Shown piece after piece: positions 9,447-47,549 of a stretch of 64,000 bases of DNA. Both the position numbers and the translations under genes were made by a program. The notes under the pieces were generated by a model. That model made no database searches and was not told the origin of the DNA. It saw only the letters and a list, made by a program, of their open reading frames with translations. How positions within the stretch are numbered: the stretch's first letter is position 1; each line of letters begins with the position of its first letter. This stretch comes from Gordonibacter sp. 28C. GTDB lineage: Bacteria; Actinomycetota; Coriobacteriia; Coriobacteriales; Eggerthellaceae. The stretch covers positions 62,001 to 126,000 of the forward strand of contig NZ_PPTR01000002.1 of assembly GCF_003339845.1 (NCBI RefSeq). The letters are read 5' to 3'.

Positions 9447-9893
9447 ATGCCGAGCAAAGGGCAACGTGCCCGGTTCTTGTACCGGGGAAGCTTTCCCGAC
9501 GGAAAGGTATTCGACGACTGCGAGGGCACCCCGCACGAGGTGATCTTAGGCCGGCACCAAGTCATGCGAGCGCTTGAAGAAGCGCTCTTGGACATGGAAC
9601 CCGGAGATGAGCGGATCCTCGAACTCGCACCTGCCGAGGCGTACGGCGAGCGCGACGAGGCAGCGCTGCAGCGCGTGCCCACGTACCGTATACCGAACGG
9701 AGAGAACCTCCCCGTCGGTCACATAATCGGCTGGACGACGCCACGCAACGCCGAGCCGATCCCCGCCACCGTCGTGAGCATCGAAAACCAGGTGGCGACG
9801 CTCGACTTCAATCATCCCCTTGCCGGACGGGATATCGTCTACTGGATCAAGCTCGTAGACGTCGAACCGGCAGCATCCGGGGCTACCGTTTGA
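9447..9893 (+). CDS. SlyD-type FKBP peptidyl-prolyl cis-trans isomerase
   Basis: 148 residues. An N-terminal FKBP half (DGKVFDD, MEPGDERILELAPAEAYGE) leads into an insert-in-flap region (about residues 68-120, QRVPTYRIPNG) and returns to the FKBP strand LDFNHPLAGRDIVYW, the SlyD arrangement. It lacks the His/Cys-rich metal-binding tail of E. coli SlyD. Cytoplasmic; expected to isomerise Xaa-Pro bonds and act as a chaperone. It shares the DFNHP-AGK/R block with the isomerase at 38043-38477, which is inside a molybdoenzyme operon. Ends just before a bidirectional terminator. Confidence 0.92.
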   Translation: MPSKGQRARFLYRGSFPDGKVFDDCEGTPHEVILGRHQVMRALEEALLDMEPGDERILELAPAEAYGERDEAALQRVPTYRIPNGENLPVGHIIGWTTPRNAEPIPATVVSIENQVATLDFNHPLAGRDIVYWIKLVDVEPAASGATV

Positions 9894-12232: not shown

Positions 12233-12466
12233 CTAATCACCTCCTGTAATCGATGCCCGAACCGTCCCTTCGAGACGGCTCGGTTTCGGCGATGCGTTCG
12301 CAGGACGGCCTCCGATTCCCGGAGGGGGCGGCATGCGCGACCCGCACCGCGGGCACAACGCCGCACCGAGCGGAACGCTCGCCCCGCAGCGGATGCACGC
12401 GGCGGAGTCGGCCGATTTCTGTTCCCCTCGGCATCTGCCGCACTTGATGCAGAACAACCCGCACAT
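12233..12466 (-). CDS. Cys-rich CGRC microprotein with zinc ribbon and Pro-rich end
   Basis: 77 residues, start ATG with AAGGAGGGACGGCT upstream. The N-terminus MCGLFCIKCGRC holds C2, C6, C9 and C12; a zinc-ribbon-like pair follows (CIRCG ... CPRCG) and then MPPPPG and a basic, Pro-rich tail. It is one of four related small proteins here (others at 21797, 37812 and 46903). It lies in an operon after the ferredoxin at 12564-12911 and is translationally coupled to the MFS gene at 12231. It could bind zinc or an iron-sulfur cluster and act as a maturation or sensing factor. Function unknown. Confidence 0.75.
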   Translation of the reverse strand: MCGLFCIKCGRCRGEQKSADSAACIRCGASVPLGAALCPRCGSRMPPPPGIGGRPANASPKPSRLEGTVRASITGGD

Positions 12467-12563: not shown

Positions 12564-12911
12564 TCACTGCTTCGGCGCGAACAGGGCGAAGCGCGTCGTG
12601 CCGTCGATCTGCTTCACCAGGTCCTCCACCTCTCCGTAGTGCATGCACCAGGCCTGGCAGTGCTGGACGCACATGGGCATCTTCCCCTTCTCCACGCGGT
12701 CGGCGCACAGGTCGCACGCCTTCGTGACCACGGGAAGCCACGTCCACTCCCATTTGTCGGGGCCCTTGGGCTTTCCCTCGTAGGCGTACGGGCCCGTCTC
12801 GGACAGCTTTATCCCGAACTCGCCCTTGGGCAGATCCAGATGCTTCTTGCACGCCACCTCGCAGGAATGGCAGCCCGTGCAGTAGTCGTAGTTGATGAGG
12901 ATTCCCTTCAT
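12564..12911 (-). CDS. Two-cluster 4Fe-4S ferredoxin subunit
   Basis: 115 residues with C11-x2-C14-x2-C17-x3-C21 and a second set in ACDLCADR and MCVQHC. The start has AAAGGAGCGGAGCA upstream. It lies 22 bp after its large subunit (12934-15414). It is close in sequence to the ferredoxins at 28555 and 34782 (LPKGEFGIKL, WEWTWLPV, KACDLCA, MPMCVQHCQAWCM), matching the fact that their large subunits also form one subgroup. Confidence 0.93.
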   Translation of the reverse strand: MKGILINYDYCTGCHSCEVACKKHLDLPKGEFGIKLSETGPYAYEGKPKGPDKWEWTWLPVVTKACDLCADRVEKGKMPMCVQHCQAWCMHYGEVEDLVKQIDGTTRFALFAPKQ

Positions 12912-12933: not shown

Positions 12934-15414
12934 TTAAGGTTTCATCGGCTCGTACTCGCGGAAGCCCCCCAACTCCGCAACCTGGACGCCCGGCATGACA
13001 TCGCCCTCGCGCACCTTGCAGATCCGGGCGGGCAGGCACTTGATAGGCGCGCCGATGTTGCCGGGTCCCGATTCGTAGGCGTGCGTCAAGTTGTTGGGGT
13101 TGTAGTCGAACGCGCCTCCGAAATGGGGTTTCGCAAGATCCTCCTCCGGCTTCCACCAGCCGTGCTCGCCGACGATGACCCGTTCGTCAACCTCGTTGGT
13201 GACCTTGGCCTTCTGCATGCAGCGGCCGTCCTCGTTCTCGATCCAAACCCACTCGCCGTCGGCAATGCCCTCCTTCTCGGCCGTCTTGGGCGATATCTTC
13301 ACCAGGGGCTCGGGGTGGAACTCGCGCATAGTCTCCGCCATGCGGTGCTCGGTGTGGAAGAACTCGTAGGAGCGCGTGCCGTTCACGAAGTAGTACGGAT
13401 ACTCTTCGAACACCTCGGGCGTCGTGTCCTTGCTCTTCGAAACCGGCGTGTAAACCGGGTACTGCGGGATGCCCCACGCCTCGAAGATGGTGGGGATGAG
13501 CTCGATGCGCCCGGACGGCGTGTTGAACCCCACCTGCCCGTCGGGGCGGAGCATGCCCTTCTCGTGCTTGTAATAGGTGGCGTTCCACGGGTCGTAGGAG
13601 TGCCCGCCGGCCTCGACGAGCGAGCGGTGGTCGCGGTAGGGGCAACCGGTTTCCGCCTCGTCCTTGATGTTGCGCTTGACGCCGCCCTCCTCGTCGGTCG
13701 AACCGGCGAAGTTGCCCTTGCGCACGTTGCCGTCCTCGTCGATCGCGGCGAGGCCCGTCGTCATGTACTCGTTGGACAGGTCGATGGCCTTCTCGAAGCG
13801 CTTGCCCGGCCCGAACAGCGCGGGGTTGAGCCGCTCGCCCAGCCAGATGGCTATCTCCTCGTCGGTCTTCGCCTCGTAGAACTGCGTGACTTTCTTCATG
13901 GCGCGCAGCGGCACCCACCACGTGCGCACGGAGTCTCGCTCGCACGAGGCCGCCACGGGCAGCACCAGGTCGGCGAAAGCCACGGCCGAGGGGGTGAGGA
14001 CGGGGTCGACGTAGACGATGAACGGGATGTCCATCATGTACTTGTACGCGCGCGGCGCCGGCTCCTCGTGCCCGGCGATGGCGTTTTGCGATTGCGCCCA
14101 GAACATCTTTATGGGATAGGGTTTGCCCGTCTCCAGCGCGTACGCCATCGCGTCGGGGTTGGACATGCCCACGAAGTCGACGCCCGGCATGTCGATGTAG
14201 GCCTTCTTGAACTTCTTGGCCACGGCCTCGGGGCGCCCGTACACGTCGGCCGACGAATAGCCGGCGTTCATCTCGTAGGCGTTGTGCACGAGGATGTGCG
14301 TGCCGGGCTTCTCGATGTCGCCGCAGACGGCCATGATGGCGCACACGGTCTGCACCCAGTGCATGCACGAAGCCGACGAGGCGTCGAACGCGAGGCCCCA
14401 CTGGATCATGCCGCGGTTCGCCGAGGCGTACAGGCGCGCGGCGGCGCGGATGTCGTCGGCGTCCACGCTCGTGATGGGCGCGGCCCACTCGGGCGGGAAC
14501 TGCGCGCAATGCGCCTTGAACTCGTCGTAGTACGCCACCCACTTGTCGACGAAGTCGTGGTCGATCAGGTCTTCTTCCATGATGACGTTCGCCATGGCCA
14601 GCGCGAGGGCGGCGTCGGTGCCGGGGTTGGGCGCCAACCAGACGTCGGCATGGGCACCCCACCACGTGAGCACGGGGTCGATGGATATGATCTTGCTGCC
14701 AAGCTGGTGGCACACCATGAGGTAGTGGCCGATGAACCCGTCGGCGTTCGACTTCAGCGGCTCGTTCGCCCACACGACGATGACGTCGGGGCGCTCCCAC
14801 TCCTCGGCCGCGTAACGTTTCTCCTGCGCCTGCGCGCAGTCCACAACCGGGTAATCGCCCAAGGGTCCGGCGGCGCCGCACACGCGCGGCATGTAGCACG
14901 ACCAGCCGGAAAAGTAGATGCCGCCGCAGTTCGCCGTGCCGAAGCAGGCGCCGGCGATGAACGGTATCTGCCAGTTGATGTTGCGCCCGGTTCCGTGGCC
15001 CACCACGATGGACTCGCGTCCGAAGCCCTTGCCGTCGATCTCCTCGACGATGAACTTCTCAACGATGTCGAGCGCCTCTTCCCACGTGATGCGCTCCCAC
15101 TTGTTCTCGCCGCGCTCGCCGGCGCGCTTCATGGGGTACTTGATGCGGTGGTCGTTGTTCACCATCTCAGGCAGGTCGAGGCAGCGCATGCACAGCTTGC
15201 CGTTCACGCAGGGGTCGAGCGGGTCGCCCTCCACGTGGTCGAGCACGCCGTCCTTGACGTAGAGCAGCACGCCGCACGAGTCGTGGCAGCCGGGATACGT
15301 GTAGTTGTAGGTGCGGGTGACGGTGAAGCCGTCCTCTTCCCACTGCCATTCGCCTTCGTGGTAGGCCTTGCGGTCGACGTTGTCGAGGAACGCCTGGTAA
15401 TCGAATGCGGACAT
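12934..15414 (-). CDS. Molybdopterin (bis-MGD) oxidoreductase large subunit, second subgroup
   Basis: 826 residues. Start ATG with GAAGGAGGAGAAACT upstream. Cluster-type Cys: C43-x3-C47-x27-C75-x2-C78 (PGCHDSCG, KLCMRC). The candidate Mo-ligand Cys is C173 in SGWSCYMPRVCG. Other blocks: GHGTGRNINWQ, RTWWVPLRAMKKV, NTPSGRIELIP, EFFHTEHRMAETMREF. No Tat signal, so cytoplasmic. The large subunits at 28925 and 35138 share this layout. The operon order is MFS, large subunit, ferredoxin, CGRC microprotein, MFS, with a membrane LuxR gene upstream. Catechol-dehydroxylase-like by family and context; substrate unknown. Confidence 0.93.
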   Translation of the reverse strand: MSAFDYQAFLDNVDRKAYHEGEWQWEEDGFTVTRTYNYTYPGCHDSCGVLLYVKDGVLDHVEGDPLDPCVNGKLCMRCLDLPEMVNNDHRIKYPMKRAGERGENKWERITWEEALDIVEKFIVEEIDGKGFGRESIVVGHGTGRNINWQIPFIAGACFGTANCGGIYFSGWSCYMPRVCGAAGPLGDYPVVDCAQAQEKRYAAEEWERPDVIVVWANEPLKSNADGFIGHYLMVCHQLGSKIISIDPVLTWWGAHADVWLAPNPGTDAALALAMANVIMEEDLIDHDFVDKWVAYYDEFKAHCAQFPPEWAAPITSVDADDIRAAARLYASANRGMIQWGLAFDASSASCMHWVQTVCAIMAVCGDIEKPGTHILVHNAYEMNAGYSSADVYGRPEAVAKKFKKAYIDMPGVDFVGMSNPDAMAYALETGKPYPIKMFWAQSQNAIAGHEEPAPRAYKYMMDIPFIVYVDPVLTPSAVAFADLVLPVAASCERDSVRTWWVPLRAMKKVTQFYEAKTDEEIAIWLGERLNPALFGPGKRFEKAIDLSNEYMTTGLAAIDEDGNVRKGNFAGSTDEEGGVKRNIKDEAETGCPYRDHRSLVEAGGHSYDPWNATYYKHEKGMLRPDGQVGFNTPSGRIELIPTIFEAWGIPQYPVYTPVSKSKDTTPEVFEEYPYYFVNGTRSYEFFHTEHRMAETMREFHPEPLVKISPKTAEKEGIADGEWVWIENEDGRCMQKAKVTNEVDERVIVGEHGWWKPEEDLAKPHFGGAFDYNPNNLTHAYESGPGNIGAPIKCLPARICKVREGDVMPGVQVAELGGFREYEPMKP

Positions 15415-34772: not shown

Positions 34773-35143
34773 CCTCGGGCCCTACTTCGCGTACAGCGCC
34801 CAGCGGCTGCCGCCGTCCATCTTCTTGGCCAGCTCCTCGGCCTCGCCGTAGTACATGCACCAGGCCTGGCAGTGCTGCACGCACATGGGCATCTTGCCGG
34901 CCTGCGTGCGCGACGCGCACAGGTCGCACGCCTTGGTGAGCACCGGCAGCCACGTCCACTCCCAGCGCTCGGGGCCGTCCTTGCCCTCGCGCTCCCAGGG
35001 GCCGGTCTCGGTGAGCTTGATGCCGAACTCGCCCTTGGGCAGGCCGAGCTCCTTCTTGCAGGCCACCTCGCAGCTGTGGCAGCCCGTGCAGTACTCGTAG
35101 TTGATCAGGATCGCCTTGGTCATGATGAAACTCCTCCTTACGC
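34773..35143. repeat. 371-bp perfect direct repeat, copy B (ferredoxin gene)
   Basis: Identical to 28546-28916, offset 6,227 bp. The identity covers the gene and ribosome site and includes the last few bases of the large-subunit gene. Confidence 0.9.
34782..35123 (-). CDS. Two-cluster 4Fe-4S ferredoxin subunit (copy B)
   Basis: 113 residues, identical to the product of 28555-28896, with the same AAGGAGGAGTTTCATC site. It follows the large subunit at 35138-37630 by 14 bp. See copy A for Cys ligands. Confidence 0.93.
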   Translation of the reverse strand: MTKAILINYEYCTGCHSCEVACKKELGLPKGEFGIKLTETGPWEREGKDGPERWEWTWLPVLTKACDLCASRTQAGKMPMCVQHCQAWCMYYGEAEELAKKMDGGSRWALYAK

Positions 35144-37630
35144 CTGCATGGGTTGGTAGTCGTCGCGCCAACCACCGAGCTGCGTGATCTGCTTGCCTGG
35201 CATGACGTCGCCATCCTGCACCTTGTAGATGCGGCAGCGCGTGCACTTGATGGGAGAGCCGATGCCGCCCGGACCCGATTGGAAGTTGCGCGTGAGGTTG
35301 TTCACGTTGTAGTCGAAGCATCCGTTCAGGTGCGGTGCAGCGGCTTCCTCCTCGGGCTTCCACCAGCCGTGCTCGGCCGAGATGCAATCATCGGGAATTC
35401 CCTCGAACACCTGGACCATCTGCTTGCAGCGCCCCTCGTTGTTCTCCATCCAAATCCAGTCGCCGTCCTGCAAGTCGTAATCGGCGGCCGTCTTTGGCGA
35501 CACCTTCACGCGGGGCTCGGGATGGAACTCGCGCATGGTGGGAGCCTGACGATGCTCGGTATGGAAGAACTCGTAGGAACGGGCGCCGTTGATCATGTAG
35601 AACGGCAGCTCTTCCATGACCTCCGGCGTGGTCTCCCAGGTTTCGGGAGCAGGCGTGTACACCGGATACGGCGGAATGCCCCATGACTGGAAGATAGTCG
35701 GCACCAGCTCGATGCGGCCGGACGGCGTGTTGAAGCCGACCTGGCCGTCGGGGCGCAGCATGCCCTTCTCGTGCTTGTTGTACGTGGCGTTCCATTCGTC
35801 GTAGGCGTGACCGCCCGCCGCAACCAGCTGGTCGAACGTGTAAGGGCATTTCGTGGTGATAGAGGGGCCGCTGTCGTCGGTAACCGACGTATGCCCCCAC
35901 TCGTCGTCGGTCGCCGCCGAGAAATTGGCCTTCTTCACCTTGCCGTCGGGACCGACGACCGCAAGGTCGGTCAGCAGATAGTCGTTGATGAAGTCTTCGG
36001 CGGAATCCCAACGCACGAACAGCTCGGGATTCAAGCGCTTGCCCAGCCAGAGCGCGATCTCCTCGTCGGACTTCGCTTCGTAGAAGCTCGTCACCTTCTT
36101 CATGGCACGCAACGGCGTCCACCAGGTACGGGCCGAGTCGCGCTCCACCGACATGGACACCGGCAAGATGATATCCGCCAAGGCGACCATCGTCGGCGTG
36201 ATGAAGGGGTCGGCGTACACGATGAAGGGTATCTTCGACATGTACTTGTAGGCACGGGGAACCTGCCCCTCGTGTCCGGCGAACGCATTGCAGCTCTGGG
36301 CCCACAGCATTTTGATCGGGTAATCCTCGCCCGTCACGGGAATCTTCCCCGCCTCGAGAACCGAGGCCATGGAATCGCAGTTGGACATGCCCACGAAGTC
36401 GAGGCCTTCGTCGCCCACCATCCACTTGCGGAACTTGCGCTCCAGCGCGCCAGGATCGGCGTAAAGGTCCACCGACGAGTAGCCGGCGTTGATGTCGAAG
36501 GAGTTGTGCACGAGCACATGCGTGCCGGGCTTCTCTATGTTGCCGCAAATGGCCATGAGGTCGCACACCGCCTCGACCCAATGCATGGACGAGCTGGTGC
36601 CCGCGTCGAAAACGAGGCCCCATTGGATGGCCCCGCGATCCGCCTGAGCGTATAGGCGGGCGGAGGCCGTGATGAGATCGGCCGGAACGCCTGTTATGGA
36701 CGCGGCCCATTCGGGGGAGAACTGCTGCACGTGCTCTTTGAGCTCGTCGTAATAGGCGCACCAGTTCTCGACGAACTCGTGATCGATGATGTCCTCGTTC
36801 ATGATGACGTGGAGCCACGCGAGCGCGATGCAGCAGTCGGTGCCGGGATGGGGCTGCAGCCAATACTCGGCGCGGGCGCCCCACCAGGTGAGCACCGGGT
36901 CGATCGACACGATCTTCGTGCCCATCTGCACGCATACGTTCAACCAGTGGCCCAGATAGCCGTCGCCGTTCGACTTCAACGGCTCGTTGCCCCATACCAC
37001 CAATACGTCGGGACGGGCCCACTCGTCGTTCGCATAGCGGTCGGGAAGCGTCTCGGACGCGTCCACGATGGGGTAATCGCCCAGCGGACCTGCGGCGCCG
37101 CACACACGCGGCATGTAGCACCACCATCCGGAGAAGTAGATGCCGCCCACGTTGGCGGTGCGGAAACACGCTCCGGCGATGAAGGGGACTTGCCAGTTGA
37201 TGTTGCGGCCCGTGCCGTGTCCCACGAGAATCGCCTCGCGGCCGAGGCCCTTGTCGTCGATCTCTTCCTTGATGTAGGTCTCGATCGTGTCGAGCGCCTC
37301 TTCCCATGAGATGCGCTCCCATTTGTTCTCGCCCCGCTCACCCGCGCGCTTCATGGGGTACTTCAAGCGCTGGGGGTGGTTGACCATCTCCTCCAAGTCC
37401 AAACAGCGCATGCACAGTTTGCCGTTCGCATAGGGGTCGAGAGGATCGCCTTCCACCTTTTCCAGCTTGCCGTCTTTGGTGTAAAGCAGAACGCCGCAGG
37501 AATCGTGGCAGCCGGGAGCGCTGTAATTGTAGGTGCGCGTGACGGTGAAGCCGCCCTCTTCCCAAACCACCTCCCCTTCGTGATACGCTTTGCGATCAAT
37601 GCCGTCCAAGAACCCTTTGTAGTCAGCCAT
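35138..37630 (-). CDS. Molybdopterin (bis-MGD) oxidoreductase large subunit, second subgroup
   Basis: 830 residues; start ATG with AAGGAGGCAAGTCC upstream. C41-x3-C45-x27-C73-x2-C76 (PGCHDSCG, KLCMRC); candidate Mo ligand C171 in SGWWCYMPRVCG, where a Trp replaces the small residue seen elsewhere. Closest relative in the window is 12934-15414 (FIAGACF, AAGPLGDYP, RTWWTPLRAMKKV, NTPSGRIELVP). The upstream promoter region shares a ~104-bp block with that of the 39023 operon. Cytoplasmic; catechol-dehydroxylase-like by family. Confidence 0.93.
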   Translation of the reverse strand: MADYKGFLDGIDRKAYHEGEVVWEEGGFTVTRTYNYSAPGCHDSCGVLLYTKDGKLEKVEGDPLDPYANGKLCMRCLDLEEMVNHPQRLKYPMKRAGERGENKWERISWEEALDTIETYIKEEIDDKGLGREAILVGHGTGRNINWQVPFIAGACFRTANVGGIYFSGWWCYMPRVCGAAGPLGDYPIVDASETLPDRYANDEWARPDVLVVWGNEPLKSNGDGYLGHWLNVCVQMGTKIVSIDPVLTWWGARAEYWLQPHPGTDCCIALAWLHVIMNEDIIDHEFVENWCAYYDELKEHVQQFSPEWAASITGVPADLITASARLYAQADRGAIQWGLVFDAGTSSSMHWVEAVCDLMAICGNIEKPGTHVLVHNSFDINAGYSSVDLYADPGALERKFRKWMVGDEGLDFVGMSNCDSMASVLEAGKIPVTGEDYPIKMLWAQSCNAFAGHEGQVPRAYKYMSKIPFIVYADPFITPTMVALADIILPVSMSVERDSARTWWTPLRAMKKVTSFYEAKSDEEIALWLGKRLNPELFVRWDSAEDFINDYLLTDLAVVGPDGKVKKANFSAATDDEWGHTSVTDDSGPSITTKCPYTFDQLVAAGGHAYDEWNATYNKHEKGMLRPDGQVGFNTPSGRIELVPTIFQSWGIPPYPVYTPAPETWETTPEVMEELPFYMINGARSYEFFHTEHRQAPTMREFHPEPRVKVSPKTAADYDLQDGDWIWMENNEGRCKQMVQVFEGIPDDCISAEHGWWKPEEEAAAPHLNGCFDYNVNNLTRNFQSGPGGIGSPIKCTRCRIYKVQDGDVMPGKQITQLGGWRDDYQPMQA

Positions 37631-37701
37631 GGACTTGCCTCCTTAATCGTTTGACGCGGGACATCGTCATAAGATCGGAGGATACGGAGCTGAAAAACGG
37701 T

Positions 37702-37805
37702 TGTCATCGTACCGTTCTTGGTGTTCCAGGCCGTACCTCATACTTGACGATGCCCCACCTTGGGAAACACAAAAAAATAAGCCTTCTCGAAAATGCAATA
37801 GGTAG
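37702..37805 (-). promoter_or_regulatory. Conserved promoter block, copy 1
   Basis: About 104 bp upstream of the 35138-37630 gene, alignable almost without gaps with 41468-41572. Shared words on the plus strand: TGTCATCGT, GTTCTTGGTGTT, TTGACGAT, GGGAAACAC, AGCCTT, ATAGGTAG. The half-sites GGTGTTCC and GGGAAACAC form an inverted pair around the TTGACGAT core. Probably bound by one of the adjacent membrane LuxR regulators. Confidence 0.6.
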
Positions 37806-37811
37806 GCCCTG

Positions 37812-38030
37812 CTAAGCCTGGTGCCGCCTAGGGTCGGGCTGTTTACTCCCCGCAACCATCCTTGTTCCGCCCGGGGCGAACGCAACGACGCCGCACGACG
37901 AGCATTGCCCTGTCGCAGGGTCCACCACGCCGCCGCAAGCGAAACACGGTATCTCGGCGGGAGGAGTGTAGTACGGGCTGTCTTCGCAGTACTTGCCGCA
38001 CCTGCCGCATTGCGTGCATGGGTAGCACAC
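37812..38030 (-). CDS. Cys-rich CGRC microprotein with zinc ribbon
   Basis: 72 residues from a GTG start; AGGAGGCGGGGGCT precedes it and overlaps the isomerase's stop codon 12 bp upstream. The N-terminus MCYPCTQCGRCGKYC has C2, C5, C8, C11 and C15; C5-x2-C8-x2-C11-x3-C15 matches a ferredoxin cluster motif. CFACGG and CSSCGV follow as a zinc ribbon. It is the last gene of the operon large subunit - ferredoxin - FKBP - microprotein. May bind an iron-sulfur cluster or zinc; function unknown. Confidence 0.75.
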   Translation of the reverse strand: MCYPCTQCGRCGKYCEDSPYYTPPAEIPCFACGGVVDPATGQCSSCGVVAFAPGGTRMVAGSKQPDPRRHQA

Positions 38031-38042
38031 AGCCCCCGCCTC

Positions 38043-38477
38043 CTATTTCAGGTCGACCAGCTCGACCCAGTACTCGAGCGTCTTTCCGGCAAACGGATGG
38101 TTGAAATCAAGCTTCACCATATCGGCAGTCATCTCCGTCACCCAAACGGGCATCTTTCTACCATCGTCGGGGTTCGTCCAAAAGATCACGTCGCCGATTT
38201 TCAAGCCGTATCCGTTCTCCACCATGGTCTTGAGATGCCATGATGCGAGCTTCTCCTGGTACTCCCCGTATCCGAGCGCGCAGGGCACTTCGATGGTCCG
38301 GCTCTCTCCCACTTCCATGTCCACGATCGCGTCCTCCACGCCGCGGGGAAGCTGCAAGGTTCCGATCGTGACGGCAAGCGGCTCGCCCGTCGAGCGATCG
38401 TCGATCGGCTCCTCGCCCAGCACGCCGCCCCGGTACCGGATGAAAGCGGTTTTTCCAACCCTGTTTGCCTGTCCCAT
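38043..38477 (-). CDS. SlyD-type FKBP peptidyl-prolyl isomerase in molybdoenzyme operon
   Basis: 144 residues; ATG at 38477 with GGAGGAGACT upstream (an ATG five codons earlier is possible). FKBP halves (FIRYRGG, PRGVEDAIVDMEVGES, LGYGEY) flank an insert-in-flap region and end LDFNHPFAGKTLEYWVELVDLK, like the isomerase at 9447. No metal-binding tail. Its position between ferredoxin and CGRC microprotein suggests a role in folding or cofactor loading of this molybdoenzyme; E. coli SlyD is known to assist metalloenzyme maturation. Confidence 0.9.
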   Translation of the reverse strand: MGQANRVGKTAFIRYRGGVLGEEPIDDRSTGEPLAVTIGTLQLPRGVEDAIVDMEVGESRTIEVPCALGYGEYQEKLASWHLKTMVENGYGLKIGDVIFWTNPDDGRKMPVWVTEMTADMVKLDFNHPFAGKTLEYWVELVDLK

Positions 38478-38522
38478 AGTCTCCTCCAGCATTTCCCTCG
38501 TGCGATCGGCCGCAATGGCCGC

Positions 38523-39020
38523 CTATGCTCCCTCGAGCTCTTCGGTCTCGTCGATCTCGCCGACCTTGGTGTCGTGGCGGTGCACGGCGTAGGACGCTTT
38601 GCCGGTTCCCTGAACCTCGATGTGAGCCGCACGGTGCGTGCTCTTGCTGCTGGGCACGAACGCGCCCTTGGCTTCGATGGGGTTGTACTGAGGCACCATC
38701 AGGAACTGCTTCGGCTTATCAACGAGCTGCTTGGAAAGCTCCTCGACCGTACCGTAGGTGATGATGTTGGACAGGCAGTGATGCACGCACATGGGCTCGC
38801 GCCCCTTTTCCGTACGCTCGGCGCACAGATCGCACAGATCGGTGAGCACCGGGAAGTAGTTCCAGTTCCAATGCGTCTCGTCGATCTTCCAAGGCCCGTC
38901 GGAGAGTACCTTGATACCCGTCTTGCCCACCGGGTAGCCATGCTCTTCCTTGCACGTAACCTGGCAAGATCCGCAGTTCGTGCAGTATTCGTAATCGATC
39001 AAAAGTCCATACGTCGCCAT
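38523..39020 (-). CDS. 4Fe-4S ferredoxin subunit with ~50-residue C-terminal extension
   Basis: 165 residues. The first ~115 match the other two-cluster ferredoxins (CTNCGSCQVTC at residues 13-23; CDLCAER, MCVHHC). The remaining ~50 (starting around VPQYNPIEAKG) are unique in the window, His-containing and acidic at the end (DETEELEGA). The ATG lies two bases after the large subunit's TAA, so they are coupled. Followed by the SlyD-type isomerase. The tail may dock the isomerase or the microprotein (inference). Confidence 0.92.
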   Translation of the reverse strand: MATYGLLIDYEYCTNCGSCQVTCKEEHGYPVGKTGIKVLSDGPWKIDETHWNWNYFPVLTDLCDLCAERTEKGREPMCVHHCLSNIITYGTVEELSKQLVDKPKQFLMVPQYNPIEAKGAFVPSSKSTHRAAHIEVQGTGKASYAVHRHDTKVGEIDETEELEGA

Positions 39021-39022
39021 GG

Positions 39023-41395
39023 TTACACCAGCTTTCCGAATTTTTCCCAGATCAGGTTCATGTCGGTGTCGTAGCTCTCGGCAATGGGCTCGATGTTGCA
39101 CACGAGGCATTTGTTCGGAGCCCCGAACCCGAGCTTGCCGAAGTGGTCGTTGGGAAGGAGGTTGTTGATGTTCGAACGGAAGTTGCCGTAGAGGTTCGGC
39201 TCATTGCCATCCTCCTCCGGGAACCACCACGCATGCTGCGCGTGGATCGTTTTCGCATCGACAGTTTCCGTGATGCGCGCCTTTTCCACGCATTCGCCGA
39301 AGGGGCTCCACAGGCGCACCCACTGACCGTCGGTGATGCCCAGGTCCTTGGCGACCTTCGGGTTGATCTCCACGATGGGGTCGGGGTTCAACTCGCGCAG
39401 GTAGGCTATCTGGCGATGCTCCGAATGGAAGAACGCGGTCGTGCGCGCACCGGTGGTGAGGATGAACGGGTACTCCTTCATGAGCTCGGGATTGGCAGGG
39501 CCGAACTCCGGCTCCAAGAAGTACGGAAGCGGATCGTCGCCGAATTGGTTGAACGCCGTCGACCACAGTTCAACGCGGCCGGTGGGCGTCGCGAAGCCGG
39601 GCTGGCCGTCTTGTCGCATCTCCCCGCGCTCGTACTTGTAGTAGTCCACGGGAATCTGGCACACCACGTTCTGGGAGACCTCGTCGAAGTACTTGCCGCC
39701 CTCCTTCTTGCCCAGGCGCAGGGCCTCCATGAACTCCTTTGCGCTTGCGAAATCCTCCCACACTTCCGGGCGAAGGCGACGCCCCAGCTCGTAGCACAGC
39801 TCGAAGTCGGTCATGGTCTCCCCCACTTCGATGGCCTTGTGCATGAACCCGGCCGTAACGGTGCAGGGCGCGTAGTGCGTGAACACCGTGCCCTCGCGCT
39901 CGGCCACGGTGGACAGCGGCAGGAATATATCGCAGGACGCCTCGATGGACGGATTCATGAACGTGTCGAAGCCGATGCAGAACTCGAGCGATTTCACGAT
40001 GGCGTCATGCCAACGCTGCGGTTCCATGGACGTGCAGCTCATGAGGTTGTTTCCGGCGTAGAAGCCCATCTTGATGGGGTACGGATCGCCCGTCTCCAAC
40101 GCGTGCAGCATCAAATCGGCATGGGCGTTCAGGATGATCATGCAGTAGGCGGGATACTGCTCGAGGCCGATCATCTTCTTCTGCAGCTCCTCGCCCACGC
40201 CTTTCTCGAAGCCGAAACCGGATTCGTTGTGACCCGCGCCCGTACCCGGCAGGATCTGCCCGCCCGGAACGTCCAGGTTGCCCGTGATGGCCATGAGGTC
40301 AACGGTCACCTGCCCGTTCTGCATGCCGTCAGTTTTCTGGTCGGCGGCGAGCCCCCATTGGATGGCGGCCGGCTTGGCTTGCGCGTACATGCGCGCGGCG
40401 GCATAAATGTCCTCGACCGGCACGTCGCATATCTCGGCAGCCTTCTCCGGCGGCATCTCCTGCACGCGCTCGGCCAACTGCTCGAAGCCGTAGCACCAGT
40501 ACTCCACGAAGTCGTGATCGTAAAGGTCCTCGTTGATGATGATGTTGAGCCAGGCCATGCCCATGGCCGTGTCGGTGCCGGCGCGCAGCTGCAAATGGAT
40601 GTCGGCGCGGGTGGCCAGCCAGTTCACGCGCGGGTCGATGACGATGAGGCGCGTGCCGCGGCGCAGCGTGTCGATGACCGCATGCCCGAAAAAGCCGTCG
40701 GGATTCGACTCGAGCGGAGCCTTGCCCCAAACCACCAGGCACTCGGTAAGCTCGTAGCGCTCGTCGTCCCACCGGTTCGGCAAAGCGCCCGCGTAATCCC
40801 ATTCGGGATACGTCGTGCCCGCGATATAGGCGATAGCCGCCAAGCGCGGCGTGTAGCAGGCGTAGCCCGACTGCGTGTAGCAGAAGTTCGGCGTGCCGAA
40901 GCACATGGTGCCGTACGGGGCGAACGTGCCCCCCTCGCGGCCGGTGCCTGCGAACACCACGATGGACTCGCGCCCGTAGGCGGCGGTGATGCGATCGTAC
41001 TCGCCTTTGATGATGTCGAACGCCTCGTCCCAGGTGATCTGCTCCCACGCATCGGCGTTGCCACGATCTTTGGGATCGCGTTTCATGGGATGCAGAAGAC
41101 GTGCCGGATTGTAAATGTAATCCTTGAGCGCGATGCACCGGGGGCACAGGCGCCCCTGGGTCACCGGGTTGTTCTCGTCCCCCTCGACTCGCACGAGCTT
41201 GCCCTCGCCGTCCACGTACAGCTTGAGACCGCATCCTACGGGGTGGCACCCCGGAGGAGACCACGGACTCGTGCGGGTGACGGTGAGGCCGTCCTCCTCG
41301 TAGCGCCACGGCTTGCCAATGTCGTTGACGTCCGAAAGCGTATCGAGCTTGACTACTTCGGCTCTTTTGTAGAATTCGTCTTCGCTCATGGCCAC
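39023..41395 (-). CDS. Molybdopterin (bis-MGD) oxidoreductase large subunit
   Basis: 790 residues from GTG at 41395 (ATG two codons in, 41389, is equally possible; GAAGGAG and AAAGGA lie upstream). C50-x4-C55-x28-C84-x2-C87; the extra Cys seen in its relatives is Ser here (SPWSPPGC). Candidate Mo ligand C180 in QSGYACYTPR. Other blocks: TPTGRVELWS, DPLPYFLEP, FFHSEHRQIAYL. Closest to the partial enzyme at 1-1279. First gene of an operon with ferredoxin, SlyD-type isomerase and CGRC microprotein. Two membrane LuxR genes lie upstream on the same strand. Confidence 0.93.
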   Translation of the reverse strand: MAMSEDEFYKRAEVVKLDTLSDVNDIGKPWRYEEDGLTVTRTSPWSPPGCHPVGCGLKLYVDGEGKLVRVEGDENNPVTQGRLCPRCIALKDYIYNPARLLHPMKRDPKDRGNADAWEQITWDEAFDIIKGEYDRITAAYGRESIVVFAGTGREGGTFAPYGTMCFGTPNFCYTQSGYACYTPRLAAIAYIAGTTYPEWDYAGALPNRWDDERYELTECLVVWGKAPLESNPDGFFGHAVIDTLRRGTRLIVIDPRVNWLATRADIHLQLRAGTDTAMGMAWLNIIINEDLYDHDFVEYWCYGFEQLAERVQEMPPEKAAEICDVPVEDIYAAARMYAQAKPAAIQWGLAADQKTDGMQNGQVTVDLMAITGNLDVPGGQILPGTGAGHNESGFGFEKGVGEELQKKMIGLEQYPAYCMIILNAHADLMLHALETGDPYPIKMGFYAGNNLMSCTSMEPQRWHDAIVKSLEFCIGFDTFMNPSIEASCDIFLPLSTVAEREGTVFTHYAPCTVTAGFMHKAIEVGETMTDFELCYELGRRLRPEVWEDFASAKEFMEALRLGKKEGGKYFDEVSQNVVCQIPVDYYKYERGEMRQDGQPGFATPTGRVELWSTAFNQFGDDPLPYFLEPEFGPANPELMKEYPFILTTGARTTAFFHSEHRQIAYLRELNPDPIVEINPKVAKDLGITDGQWVRLWSPFGECVEKARITETVDAKTIHAQHAWWFPEEDGNEPNLYGNFRSNINNLLPNDHFGKLGFGAPNKCLVCNIEPIAESYDTDMNLIWEKFGKLV

Positions 41396-41467
41396 GTCCT
41401 TTCTCCTTCTCGTCTACGGTGCCGAAGGGCACCATTGCGAGGGAGGATAACGTGGCGCGAAGCGGGC

Positions 41468-41572
41468 TGTCATCGTGGCGTTCTTGGTGTTTGCACCGAT
41501 ACCCTATATTTGACGATATTCCATCTGGGAAAACACAGGAAGATTAGCCTTGGGGGTAACACCGATAGGTAG
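41468..41572 (-). promoter_or_regulatory. Conserved promoter block, copy 2
   Basis: Counterpart of 37702-37805, starting 73 bp upstream of the 39023-41395 gene. On the plus strand GGTGTTTGC and GGGAAAACAC form the outer inverted pair around TTGACGAT. Located between the molybdoenzyme and the LuxR regulator at 41640. Confidence 0.6.
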
Positions 41573-41639: not shown

Positions 41640-43073
41640 TCATTCCTCTCCGTACAGCTTCGTGTTCTCGATAAGGTTGAGCAGCTCCTGACGAGAGTGC
41701 ACGCCCGTCTTTCGATAGATGTTGCGAATATGGGTTTGCGCCGTGCTCAAAGAGATCGACAGCGCTTCTTCGATGTACTTGGCATTCCTTCCCTGAGCCA
41801 CCAGAACCAGAACCTCGAACTGGCGCTCGGAAAGATCGCACTGCTCGCCCACCACTCGACACCGTTTCTTCCAGAGGCCTTTCGTTTCCGGCATCGCGCC
41901 CCCCTCTTCCATGCTGGCCTCGGGAAAGCGCGCTTTATGACAATACGAGGCGACGAAACCGTAGGCGACCGCTATCGCCGCAGACGCCTGAATCGCAAGC
42001 ATCATATCCGTAGAAGCTATCTCGGCGATGCCGAACCCACTCGCGAATCCAACGGCCACGCCCACGTAGTCGAGCGCCCGGGCCTTTCCGTAGACGCGCA
42101 GGGCCGAAAGGCGAGATATGCGCACATGTTCGGCCACGGCGACCGTGCCGAACAAGGTGTAGACCGTGAACAGGGCCGATAGGATGCAAAGCGCAATCAA
42201 GCGAAAAACGTCGCCGAACAAATACATCGACAAGAACGCAAACATGGTCAGGGGAGGTGTGAGCGGCGACAAGCTTCGCTCGCTCACTGCGCCTTTTCGG
42301 GCGAAGTTTATCGCCAACAAGACCGCCACGACCGCCGCAACGGCTAGGCAAAGCATGCGCTCCGACCCTTCCGCCGCAGATCCGAGCACGTAACCGAACT
42401 CAAAGTTGCTAATCGAGAGCATGAGCGCCGAAGTCCATAGGATCTTTGAGCGCTTGTCCGATTCCCTATTCTCGATCGGCTCGGGAAAAACGCTCTCGGG
42501 CCTCGATTTGACCAGCACGAGCAGGCAAACCAGAGAAACCGCCCAAACGAGCACAGTGGCTATACGGGACGCCTCGTCTACCAAGTAGCTCTCAACCATG
42601 CAGACGAGAACCCCGGCACCGACCGCCGCCGAAGCGAACAGGGGAATGATCTTATGGGGTCGAGCGCATATGAAGCAAAACCAGAGAGCGCAGAGGGCAC
42701 CTAAACCCAAAGCCGCCCCGCACACGGCAATCAAAACACGCGATGGACCGAACGGAGCCAACGTGACGAGGGCCATGGAAGCCAAGCCTGCGATAGCGCC
42801 GACCACGAGAACCCCGCATCGACCAGAAGCCAACGCGTGCGACGCAAAATGAACCAAGGAAAAGGCCAAGGCCAAGGCGAGCGCGCAGCCAATGCGCATC
42901 GCGGCCGCATGACTTTCCCCCGGAGCAAAGCCGGGGACAATGAGGAACAGGGCTAGAACCGTCGCAGCGAGCGATGCGAAGCCGACAAACCCTATCAGCG
43001 TATCAAGATCGAGCTTCATCGATCCGACACGCGAAATCCCCCTGGATTCGTGCATCATATTCCCAACCTTCAT
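41640..43073 (-). CDS. Membrane-bound LuxR-family transcriptional regulator
   Basis: 477 residues; about 12 hydrophobic segments then a LuxR helix-turn-helix (LSERQFEVLVLVAQG, STAQTHIRNIYRKTG, HSRQELLNLIE). The start is uncertain: ATG at 43073, or ATG at 43058 with AAGG eight bases upstream. It follows the regulator at 43095 by 21 bp, so they are probably co-transcribed. Likely sensor for the adjacent 39023 operon, whose promoter block lies just downstream. Confidence 0.88.
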   Translation of the reverse strand: MKVGNMMHESRGISRVGSMKLDLDTLIGFVGFASLAATVLALFLIVPGFAPGESHAAAMRIGCALALALAFSLVHFASHALASGRCGVLVVGAIAGLASMALVTLAPFGPSRVLIAVCGAALGLGALCALWFCFICARPHKIIPLFASAAVGAGVLVCMVESYLVDEASRIATVLVWAVSLVCLLVLVKSRPESVFPEPIENRESDKRSKILWTSALMLSISNFEFGYVLGSAAEGSERMLCLAVAAVVAVLLAINFARKGAVSERSLSPLTPPLTMFAFLSMYLFGDVFRLIALCILSALFTVYTLFGTVAVAEHVRISRLSALRVYGKARALDYVGVAVGFASGFGIAEIASTDMMLAIQASAAIAVAYGFVASYCHKARFPEASMEEGGAMPETKGLWKKRCRVVGEQCDLSERQFEVLVLVAQGRNAKYIEEALSISLSTAQTHIRNIYRKTGVHSRQELLNLIENTKLYGEE

Positions 43074-43094: not shown

Positions 43095-44693
43095 CTATAA
43101 GGATTCCCCAAGGAAACTTTCGTCGATGCTCTCGTTTTCCACAAGGTCCATCAAATCCTGGCGCGAATGCGACCCTGTTTTTTGATAGATGTTGTATATA
43201 TGGGCCTTGGCGGTGTGTGGCGAGATAACCAGCTGTTTTTGTATGTACTCGGCATTGCGTCCCTTGGCGAGCAAATGGAGCACTTCGGTTTGACGCTTAG
43301 ACAAACCGTACTTTTCGGCGACCGCATCGCATTTCAGATGGAAGAACCTAACGCCCGAATCGGCGTTTCCGTATCCTGGGTCAACCACCACTTCCCCATG
43401 CGGCCCCAACTTGGCGCGCGCCTCCTGCTTTTGCTCTTCGCCGGGATAGTAGCTTTGCTTGCTCACCGTCGTTGAAACCAGAATGAAGAACATAACCACG
43501 ATCGTCACCATGACCGGAAGCGTAATGGAACCGAACGCCTGCGTAGAAAACGCAACCCAACCCGCCGCCAATCCCAGCAGCAGCCCCGACGACGAAAACA
43601 GCCTGCCCCATCCAAACGTCCTTACGGATGACAAGTCGCATCGTGCGATATGCTCGCATGTCGCAAAAATGGCGCTGGCGTAAGGCAGCAGCGAGAACAG
43701 GAACGCGAAAACGCACGGCCACACCCAGAGCTCCTGCGGCAAGAAAAACAACGGGAGAATGCATGCCGCGAGCACGGGGAGAAACATCTTCCGAATGAAG
43801 GACTCTTTGAGGAAAAACGCCTTCTGAGAATCAACGAGGAGCAGAGCGAGAACGATCAGCGAGCCGCCCTGGATGATCGCGGACACACCGAAGGTGTGCA
43901 CTTCAGGCGCCAGCAACCAGTACAGAGCAAATCCCTGGGCTGCCGAGCCCATAACGGTAAGAAGGGAGGGCTTCCATGTGATCTGCAGCCTTTGGTCGGA
44001 CTCTTTAGCCGCTATAGCGGGAAGGTCGTCCATGAGCGAGAAACGCGCATGCAAGAACAGGTACGTCAGCCCGGAGAGCAGAGCGTAGAGCATGATGATG
44101 TAAGGTATCAGATGACTGTCCACAAAAACCGTTCCCACATACCATAGAAACGAGAGCGCCAGCATCGCGGCAACCGCAGAACGTATTTGCACCTTCAAGA
44201 GCACGCACACGAACTCGATCCACAACGTCGTGAGGACAGCGACGCCCACGCCGGCCAAAGCGGCAATCACATAACCCCATACGGGCTGGATATTGGAAAG
44301 GGCACCTAGGGAGTGGGCCGCCCCGCAAACAAGAGCCGTCACCACCAAGACAACGCGGTGATTCTGGAGCCAGTTGGACAACAGCCATTGGACGAAGTAC
44401 GTCAGCAGAAGCGCGGCAACGAACACGAAATGCAGCATGCCCACATCCGAGGGAGAGCCGCCCTCCCCTGTCACGAAATCGCTCGTCGTAAGGATCGCGA
44501 AAAACCAGGTGAAGCAAAACGAAGCCCCCAAAACCCCGGCGATGAGGTAAGGGTTGACGAAAAGCCATTCGTTCCTTTTTTTCGGGTCTTTGCTTTTCGA
44601 TGAAGTTTCTGATGAGATTTCACGAACCATGGAAACAGTCACCCCCGTTGACGGTTTCATCCACTCGCTTGACGACGTCTTCGCCATCGCCAT
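43095..44693 (-). CDS. Membrane-bound LuxR-family transcriptional regulator
   Basis: About 532 residues; the start is uncertain because no strong ribosome site is visible (I chose ATG at 44693 after CGAGGT). A hydrophilic N-terminus of ~60 residues (SSETSSKSKDPKKRNEW) precedes ~12 hydrophobic segments and a C-terminal LuxR domain (LSKRQTEVLHLLAKG, HTAKAHIYNIYQKTG, HSRQDLMDLVE). Paralog of the regulator at 16948. A TCGRTTATAWCCGA element lies 167 bp upstream. Confidence 0.86.
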   Translation of the reverse strand: MAMAKTSSSEWMKPSTGVTVSMVREISSETSSKSKDPKKRNEWLFVNPYLIAGVLGASFCFTWFFAILTTSDFVTGEGGSPSDVGMLHFVFVAALLLTYFVQWLLSNWLQNHRVVLVVTALVCGAAHSLGALSNIQPVWGYVIAALAGVGVAVLTTLWIEFVCVLLKVQIRSAVAAMLALSFLWYVGTVFVDSHLIPYIIMLYALLSGLTYLFLHARFSLMDDLPAIAAKESDQRLQITWKPSLLTVMGSAAQGFALYWLLAPEVHTFGVSAIIQGGSLIVLALLLVDSQKAFFLKESFIRKMFLPVLAACILPLFFLPQELWVWPCVFAFLFSLLPYASAIFATCEHIARCDLSSVRTFGWGRLFSSSGLLLGLAAGWVAFSTQAFGSITLPVMVTIVVMFFILVSTTVSKQSYYPGEEQKQEARAKLGPHGEVVVDPGYGNADSGVRFFHLKCDAVAEKYGLSKRQTEVLHLLAKGRNAEYIQKQLVISPHTAKAHIYNIYQKTGSHSRQDLMDLVENESIDESFLGESL

Positions 44694-44859
44694 ACCTCGA
44701 ATAATAGTACGTCCAGCAGGGACTTTGTTCCGAGGTGATGACGATCCCTCAAGTTTCAGGCATGACGCATTAGACTTGCATACGGACATAAGGTCTCGAT
44801 GCTTACGCCTCCTACCCTAGATTCCCACATCCTTCGCAACATCGCGTCACAAGGGAACT

Positions 44860-45592: not shown

Positions 45593-46906
45593 CTATTCCG
45601 CAGCCGGAGCCTCGTTCGGATCCTTCACCGTGATCTCCGCGTGGTCGAGGAGCCACTTGTTCGCCTTGATGCGCTCGGCGGCCTCGCGCAGCGCGAAGCC
45701 GCGGCCCGACTCCTCCATCTGGCGACGGACGCCCTGCGGGTTCTGCGGGTTCATGGACGCGCACGCCTCCTGCACGTCCTCGTCGCTCACGACGAGGCCC
45801 TCGTGGCGGAACACCGCGTCCAGAGCGTAGCCCTGCACGAGCATCTGGCGCGTCTGCATCATCATCATCATGTTGAACTGCTGCTCGCCGCCCTGCTGCT
45901 CGACGAACTGGTCCCACGTCATGTTCTGCTGCTCCACCTCGGCGCGCAGGTTGTTCATGAGGTTGCGCGACATGGACTCGTACACCTCGTCGGCGATGCT
46001 GCCCTGGAAGCGCTTCGCCAGCTCGCCGGCGGCGAGGTTGCGCTTGTAGTTCTCGTATTCGCCCGAAAGCTGGCGGTTCAAGCCGTTGCGGATGTCATCG
46101 CGCATGGCGGCCAGGTCCTTGTACATGGGCATGTACTTGGCCACCCACGCGTCGTCAATGACGGGAGCGACCTTCTTCTGGATTTCCTTGACGGTGGCCG
46201 TGCATTCGATCGTCTCGACGATCTCGTTGCCCTCGTCGTCGATTCCGGGGCCCTCGAACGTGAACGTCTTGGTCTCGCCCACGTCCATGCCGACGATGTT
46301 CTCGTCGAAGCCGTCGGGCATGAGGCCCGCGCCGGTCGTGTAGGTGCGCGCGTCGGTGGTGAGGCCGGGGAGCTTCTCGCCGTTCTCGTAGGACTCCATG
46401 GCCAGAAGGCAGCTGTCGCCCTTGCGCACCGGGTGCGGGTCGTCGGCCACGAACTCGGCGTAGCGCTCGGCCACTTGGCTGATCTGCGCGTCGACCTGGC
46501 TCTCGTCGACGGACACCTCCTGCACGGTGATGGACACCGGCTCGTAGGACGTGAGCTCGTAGTCCGGCTTCGGGGTGAGGTGCAGCGCGAACTGGAACGT
46601 CTGGCCGCGCTTGAGCGCCGTCTTGGGCTCGGGCTGCGGCGGGAACGCGGGAATGACGCCGGTCTTGTCGATGGCGAACGGCACGAGGGCCTCCACCGCC
46701 TGGTTCATAACGACCGAATCGAGGTCCTTGATGCCCATGCGCTCCTCAGCGGCCTGGGCCACCGTCTTGTCCTTCTCCGGGCGCATGCCCATCTGCTGGG
46801 CGAACGCGAGATGCGCGTTGTTAAGCGCGTTGCTCACCTCGGCCGTCGAGGCAACGGCATCGATGAACAGCGTGCCGTCGTCGAGTTTCTTCTGCGTGAT
46901 CTTCAT
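45593..46906 (-). CDS. tig: Trigger factor-like chaperone/peptidyl-prolyl isomerase
   Basis: 437 residues. N-terminal ribosome-binding-type domain (MKITQKKLDDGTLFIDA), a central FKBP-like domain (VRKGDSCLLAMESYENG, GFDENIVGMDVGETKTFTF) and a C-terminal helical arm rich in Gln/Met (QQFNMMMMMQTRQM). The start overlaps the stop of the upstream microprotein gene (ATGA). Length and layout fit trigger factor, but the N-terminal ribosome signature is divergent and the usual clpP/clpX neighbours are absent, so this may be a paralog rather than the housekeeping copy. Confidence 0.85.
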   Translation of the reverse strand: MKITQKKLDDGTLFIDAVASTAEVSNALNNAHLAFAQQMGMRPEKDKTVAQAAEERMGIKDLDSVVMNQAVEALVPFAIDKTGVIPAFPPQPEPKTALKRGQTFQFALHLTPKPDYELTSYEPVSITVQEVSVDESQVDAQISQVAERYAEFVADDPHPVRKGDSCLLAMESYENGEKLPGLTTDARTYTTGAGLMPDGFDENIVGMDVGETKTFTFEGPGIDDEGNEIVETIECTATVKEIQKKVAPVIDDAWVAKYMPMYKDLAAMRDDIRNGLNRQLSGEYENYKRNLAAGELAKRFQGSIADEVYESMSRNLMNNLRAEVEQQNMTWDQFVEQQGGEQQFNMMMMMQTRQMLVQGYALDAVFRHEGLVVSDEDVQEACASMNPQNPQGVRRQMEESGRGFALREAAERIKANKWLLDHAEITVKDPNEAPAAE

Positions 46907-47085
46907 CTTGGTTCCGTCTCCTTCATACGAGCATTGCGGCGCTTGACGCCGGGTGGAGGCGGAAACGGCGTGTCGCATTTCGCGCATCGCTCGGCTCCCG
47001 TGCCGTTGACGTATCCGCATACGGCGCACGTTCCGGGCTTCACCGCCTCGCGGCAGCGGCCGCAATGCGTGCAGGGATAGCACAC
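46903..47085 (-). CDS. Cys-rich CGRC microprotein coupled to trigger factor
   Basis: 60 residues from a GTG start with GGAGGGGG upstream. The N-terminus MCYPCTHCGRC matches the microprotein at 37812; CAVCGY and CAKCDT form a zinc ribbon; PFPPPPG and a basic tail follow. Its TGA overlaps the ATG of the trigger factor gene, so translation is coupled. Same family as 12233, 21797 and 37812, here with a chaperone instead of a molybdoenzyme. Confidence 0.75.
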   Translation of the reverse strand: MCYPCTHCGRCREAVKPGTCAVCGYVNGTGAERCAKCDTPFPPPPGVKRRNARMKETEPR

Positions 47086-47549
47086 GGGCGTTCCCCCTCC
47101 AGTCCTTGCTAGCTAGCAATTGTAACGCACATCGCCGCCCGTCGCGACGAGATGCGGGCAATTATAGGGCGATGTCCAGCAGTTGCGCCCCGGTAAAAAA
47201 AGAGACTGCACGGCAAGCGTTCCGCGAAGCCTTGAAAGGCGAACGAGGTGCGAAAGGTCTATTCAGGGGGTTCGACCTTCGCACCCGCGCGGTGCATGCC
47301 GTGCAGCACAGTACGTACTATACGGAATCAGTCCGATCCGCGCATTGCACCAATGGGCTTATTTTGATGCGCCGGCCTCATACCGCACGTACCACTTTCA
47401 TATCATCGCCCGGCAAAACGCGGAAACAATGCCCGGACGCGTCACATCGGCGCGCAGAAGCGGGGCGACTAGGACGGCAGCAAACCCGCGCCCCGCCTCC
47501 GAGCGACGCGGAAAACGCTCCGGCGAGACCTGCCGCCCGCCTCAAACGA
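47086..47549. other. Gene-free region upstream of the microprotein/trigger factor operon
   Basis: Contains a long stem-loop (GGTGCGAAAGGTC 47247-47259 with GACCTTCGCACC 47274-47285, one bulged base) and a CTCATACCG element near 47383. No credible gene. Confidence 0.4.

Follow-up and report, generated by a model that had tools for sequence, protein, structure and literature searches.

A conserved FKBP-type prolyl isomerase gene in one clade of putative catechol dehydroxylase operons from Gordonibacter and related bacteria

The window, that is, the whole stretch of 64,000 nucleotides from Gordonibacter sp. 28C that was analyzed, carries on its minus strand a compact group of four genes encoding a molybdopterin large subunit (L), a ferredoxin-type subunit (B), an FKBP-type prolyl isomerase (FKBP) and a Cys-rich microprotein. 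These genes and the features around them are as follows.

43095–44789, minus strand: second membrane LuxR-type regulator (PF00196).
41640–43073, minus strand: membrane LuxR-type regulator (PF00196).
41403–41572, minus strand: upstream element of the L operon, aligned to 37639–37805 and holding a promoter-like ATGACA-18-TATCCT at 41473–41444.
39023–41389, minus strand: L, large molybdopterin subunit, 788 aa; start ATG, with a GTG at 41395 possible (Pfam PF00384, PF01568 and PF04879).
38523–39020, minus strand: B, ferredoxin-type 4Fe-4S subunit, 165 aa (profile matches).
38526–38684, minus strand: C-terminal tail of B, about residues 113–165, confined to FKBP-bearing operons.
38043–38477, minus strand: FKBP-type prolyl isomerase of SlyD/FkpB architecture without a metal-binding tail, 144 aa (PF00254, E=1e-11; PDB matches to FkpB/SlyD; alignment).
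37812–38030, minus strand: Cys-rich microprotein with a CxxCxxCGRC and a zinc-ribbon-like CxxC...CxxC part, 72 aa; start GTG (eight conserved Cys, paralog family).
37639–37805, minus strand: second copy of the upstream element, 5' of the second dehydroxylase, which delimits the four-gene unit at its 3' end.
35138–37630, minus strand: second molybdopterin large subunit, without an FKBP of its own, 830 aa (ORF and profile match).
34782–35120, minus strand: short (tail-less) 4Fe-4S partner of the second large subunit (ORF, profile match, comparison of ferredoxin lengths).

All four ORFs are present in the tight order L, B, FKBP, microprotein, with gaps of 2, 45 and 12 bp, just as a preliminary description of this DNA had claimed; the range that it gave, 38043–41395, holds L, B and FKBP, and the microprotein (37812–38030) falls outside. 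A Shine-Dalgarno-like GGAGGAG precedes FKBP, and a similar TAGGAGG, which overlaps the stop codon of FKBP, precedes the microprotein. The element of approximately 170 bp located 5' of L recurs 5' of the next dehydroxylase gene (local score 109 versus 40 or less for shuffled sequences), and since the two copies bracket exactly L, B, FKBP and the microprotein, all four appear to be transcribed together. The promoter scan revealed weak promoter-like matches in both copies, whose number was not above chance. These copies (37639–37805 and 41403–41572) form a regulatory-looking repeat. Positions 1–41395 of the window are a dense island of seven dehydroxylase-type large subunits in 41 kb, and sequence inspection placed a trigger-factor-like gene, another prolyl isomerase, next to this island (45593–47161, minus strand).

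A Pfam scan of L revealed all three molybdopterin oxidoreductase domains of the DMSO reductase family, and comparison with the PDB identified acetylene hydratase (2e7z) as its best solved relative, the enzyme reported as the nearest characterized relative of catechol dehydroxylases (PMC7028382). The described Gordonibacter type comprises a soluble enzyme with a small 4Fe-4S partner, an MFS transporter and a LuxR regulator (PMC7028382, PMC12771579); L has a small 4Fe-4S partner and both LuxR and MFS neighbors, and no Tat signal was seen on inspection of its sequence. By these sequence features L belongs, as a putative member, to the cytoplasmic Gordonibacter-type catechol dehydroxylase family, and its branch of molybdenum enzymes probably removes hydroxyl groups from plant compounds. 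Matches to this family numbered 32 in the source genome and 30 in a congener (G002), and a representative of another genus in the same family of bacteria (G102) had two weak matches only. FKBP accompanies 3 of the 32 paralogs in the source genome, leaving the great majority without it. The glucocorticoid 21-dehydroxylase cluster, considered as a candidate identity for the L operon, was rejected as a match, as a commentary on it gives FdhD, a ferredoxin, a molybdopterin oxidoreductase and a band-7 protein, and no FKBP. The ellagic acid (eam) cluster was likewise rejected as the identity, there being no PF04909 amidohydrolase near the FKBP loci. At a separate locus (L181:4468-7485), a dehydroxylase, a ferredoxin and a CGRC microprotein without FKBP lie approximately 2.2 kb before a PF04909 amidohydrolase (G003:C1:2719715), and this locus is possibly the eam cluster.

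The FKBP_C match spans residues 7–75 of FKBP, and alignment with FkpB and SlyD covers nearly the full length of the protein, including the IF insert, in keeping with the architecture of both SlyD and FkpB/SlpA. Its scores lie below the cut-offs of both equivalog models, at 42.5 bits for SlyD (NF008008, cut-off 174) and 47.9 bits for FkpB/SlpA (NF011676, cut-off 125). The alignment revealed no His/Cys-rich metal-binding C-terminal tail, the protein ending in ...TLEYWVELVDLK; FKBP shares this lack of a tail with FkpB/SlpA, and its description as a SlyD relative without the metal-binding tail was correct. The equivalents of the FKBP-pocket Tyr, Asp and Tyr and an NHPxAGK motif are kept, Asp and Tyr being active-site residues of FKBPs. 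Elsewhere in the window, another tail-less FKBP (9447–9893, plus strand) is divergent from an MFS transporter gene, and its relatives adjoin MFS genes in L100 and L109. A second FKBP–molybdoenzyme association was found at L117, L122, L130 and L175, where His/Cys-tailed SlyD-like FKBPs lie near another molybdoenzyme (about 900 aa, with a 267-aa ferredoxin), sometimes with an SDR gene.

Linkage was surveyed in the FKBP and large-subunit match lists of 41 genomes, with L as the reference. Each of the 20 L homologs with 62% identity or more has an FKBP downstream on the same strand, at a distance of 21–778 bp; among the matches listed (the best 25 scored candidates per genome, a selection that leaves the bin of at least 62% unaffected), FKBPs lie beside 3/17 large subunits at 55–61%, 0/59 at 45–54% and 3/54 below 45% identity. 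By a rough estimate, with about 30 large-subunit genes in each genome, chance would place 0.05 FKBPs in the 1.5 kb 3' of them. Five further L–FKBP pairs came from a search of 298 genomes across the class (two in G183 and one each in G286, G205 and G057; 60–96% identity). The gene order, whose conservation the preliminary description had made decisive for its proposal, is thus conserved far more than chance would allow. The four genes also occur together in Raoultibacter timonensis (L093), where another gene follows them, and in one rearranged operon (G026:C96) the ferredoxin has moved upstream of L, with FKBP still directly 3' of L.

Distances of L and FKBP were strongly correlated (Mantel r=0.86 over 22 operons, 0.80 in the main clade; 0 of 2000 permutations). 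The main clade of the FKBP tree has a support of 100/100 and includes one FKBP located away from any detected large subunit (L114). Strongly supported branches of the tree force at least three changes of operon label, so that FKBPs were linked to dehydroxylases more than once, or repeatedly lost. A phylum search of a thin sample of 396 genomes gave no match at E≤1e-200 outside the family, and a DNA scan of named genomes returned close relatives only, the best being a Gordonibacter genome with a 98% identical FKBP. One genome from another family of bacteria (G029) contains five dehydroxylase operons with FKBP (L099, L101, L102, L103 and L104), which suggests spread of the module or repeated duplication. 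Taken together, the data support FKBP as a fixed member of the molybdoenzyme operon, in an association that is old and clade-specific.

These patterns bear on two readings that would deny FKBP a role tied to its enzyme. A general folding helper without a specific client could have been carried along by operon duplication, and duplication is indeed evident in the island of a genome that holds other FKBPs, including a housekeeping pair; we regard this as quite unlikely, given that FKBP is kept in every close homolog across many genera and several families, that it was associated with these operons in more than one event, and that it is under purifying selection (NG86 dN/dS 0.08–0.19). A role at another point of the regulon, such as the LuxR regulator, the transporter or the handling of substrate, is suggested by the adjacency of other island FKBPs to MFS transporter genes (9447–9893, L100 and L109), and seems very improbable for an FKBP that lies inside the enzyme operon and co-diverges with L, with the regulators upstream of the duplicated element.

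The extra C-terminal tail of B, already noticed in the preliminary description, amounts to approximately 50 residues beyond the short ferredoxins. Where a downstream ferredoxin was detected, the 161–172 aa form occurs in 17 operons with FKBP and in none without; ferredoxins of the latter are mostly about 105–124 aa long, aside from a family of 205–267 aa and some contig-cut pieces. Eight FKBP-bearing operons have the short form, those without the tail including L103, L104, L162 and L172, which indicates that the tail marks the main clade and not every FKBP operon. AlphaFold gave pLDDT values of about 27–39 for the tail and 47 for the tailed ferredoxin overall, too weak for fold claims. The exclusive co-occurrence with the tail, along with the strict operon linkage and the co-divergence, is what would be expected if FKBP stayed permanently in the mature dehydroxylase as a structural subunit, attached to the tail of the ferredoxin, instead of acting transiently in maturation. 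However, FKBP keeps the active-site residues of a working isomerase, which is unexpected for a purely structural role, it evolves faster than L (78% identical where L is 95%), and it is also present in the four operons with tail-less ferredoxin named above; a permanent subunit therefore appears unlikely, and a factor acting in maturation remains the preferred reading.

We also considered which proline might be isomerized. Pro44, beside the Fe-S motif, is present in 18/20 members of the clade and 0/30 relatives; it was rejected as the single client proline because it tracks the main clade but is missing from other FKBP-bearing operons, which leaves it only a lead. The clade that bears it is one lineage, and the pattern may therefore reflect inheritance.

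Comparison of the microprotein with 18 relatives revealed seven invariant Cys and a nearly invariant eighth, arranged as CxxCxxCxxC and CxxC...CxxC; with these two four-Cys sites, it is presumably a metal-binding protein. A dN/dS of 0.46 from one pair indicated weaker constraint outside the Cys residues. No known family reached its cut-off (DZR, 11.8 versus 27.3; rubredoxin-like, 12.6 versus 32), no fold match was found below E=0.5, PDB matches to WD40 proteins were rejected as repeat artifacts, and the AlphaFold model (pLDDT 61) is too weak for fold claims. A search of three genomes of one further genus (g39) gave partial ribbon matches only. The source genome contains about 15 full-length copies, 13 of them within 3.5 kb of a dehydroxylase gene and 3 beside FKBPs. 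A second CGRC-type microprotein in the window (12233–12466, minus strand) follows the ferredoxin (12564–12911) of a dehydroxylase (12934–15414) in an operon without FKBP.

The preliminary description had proposed that the microprotein is the metal tail of SlyD split off into a second gene, the two products forming a two-gene SlyD metallochaperone. The 12-bp spacing of the two genes and their joint presence in 16/20 clade operons speak for this idea, which nevertheless has very little chance of being right and was abandoned: most microprotein copies lie beside dehydroxylases without FKBP, 4/20 FKBP operons lack the microprotein, and two four-Cys sites with little His take the place of a His/Cys tail. 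Furthermore, separate SlyD-like FKBPs with a tail of their own are found in the same bacterial group, and FkpB-type FKBPs without a tail, such as E. coli FkpB, are a normal known type. The microprotein thus appears to be a separate, more widely used partner of dehydroxylases, not of FKBP.

Gene order, near-obligate and clade-restricted linkage, co-divergence, purifying selection, kept active-site residues and linkage with the ferredoxin tail suggest that FKBP is dedicated to the assembly of cytoplasmic Gordonibacter-type catechol dehydroxylases of a single clade, a reading to which we assign a probability of roughly 60%. In the best supported mechanism, a two-domain FkpB/SlpA-like prolyl isomerase with an IF chaperone domain, translated from the mRNA that also encodes its clients, would act on apo-L and/or B, either ahead of cofactor insertion or while it takes place; NifM, SlyD and the TorD-like DadhF serve as precedents. 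FKBP would most likely bind unfolded or apo-L and/or the tailed 4Fe-4S subunit B, speed a slow prolyl step, and hold the L–B pair until it has received its Fe-S clusters and molybdopterin cofactor; chaperone action, the subunit that is the client, and the B tail as part of docking are the parts that we infer. Such a factor would not be a general need of the dehydroxylase family, because most of the 32 paralogs lack FKBP and because expression in E. lenta yields active enzyme for other members of the Gordonibacter type (PMC11887054). The earlier proposal of a prolyl isomerase built into a molybdoenzyme operon for maturation thus survives in part, as the old, clade-specific linkage would fit a maturation role, and is lost where it took the microprotein for a tail. 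A more far-reaching and only tentative possibility is a molybdenum-enzyme counterpart of NifM, in which a family-specific FKBP and a matching 4Fe-4S-subunit tail, linked more than once to dehydroxylase operons, would work together with a large, distinct family of two-site Cys microproteins that supply metal or clusters to cytoplasmic catechol dehydroxylases.

How gut bacteria process polyphenols and drugs depends on catechol dehydroxylases, most of which are uncharacterized, in part owing to the difficulty of obtaining active enzyme. A folding helper that is conserved and clade-specific could account for failed expression of the branch of L and defines a set of genes for co-expression, with the ferredoxin tail as a concrete candidate docking site. 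Genetic tools are available for G. urolithinfaciens (PMC11887054). If the reading is right, the assembly factors known for molybdenum enzymes would gain a prolyl isomerase. The text of the main catechol dehydroxylase papers makes no mention of an FKBP or isomerase, though annotation in gene maps of figures or supplements may exist, and a search of the open-access literature found no paper joining the two; a dedicated FKBP assembly factor for these enzymes is apparently so far undescribed. Isomerases dedicated to metalloenzymes are already known in kind, and what looks new is an FKBP combined with a molybdenum enzyme whose ferredoxin carries a matching tail.

Among known systems, the Gordonibacter-type catechol dehydroxylases Cldh/Dodh, Gp Hcdh, Eadh1/2 and (+)-Eldh1/2 share with L a cytoplasmic DMSO-reductase-family enzyme, a small 4Fe-4S partner and MFS and LuxR neighbors (PMC7028382, PMC12771579, PMC11887054), whereas the ferredoxin tail and FKBP, the latter not mentioned in the texts on these enzymes, set the subclade of L apart. 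The TorD-like DadhF is a dedicated chaperone indispensable for E. lenta Dadh (PMC11887054); a dedicated dehydroxylase chaperone is what we propose here, but TorD-like proteins have another fold and serve Tat-exported enzymes, and Pfam and NCBIfam scans found no TorD-family match among the operon proteins. SlyD, which has been linked to metal enzymes and Fe-S biogenesis (PMC10653786), has the same FKBP and IF architecture, from which FKBP differs in lacking the His/Cys tail and in its score below the NF008008 cut-off. NifM is a prolyl isomerase dedicated to NifH of nitrogenase, and only part of the client family depends on it (PMC12691677); dedication of a prolyl isomerase to one metalloenzyme partner, proposed here for FKBP, would be common to both, whereas NifM has a PpiC/parvulin fold instead of FKBP_C and another client. 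E. coli FkpB (SlpA) is likewise a two-domain FKBP with an IF insert and no metal tail, and its gene lies directly before ispH, which encodes a 4Fe-4S enzyme; at about 20% identity, it is a single general gene, in contrast to the dedicated, multi-copy operon partner described here.
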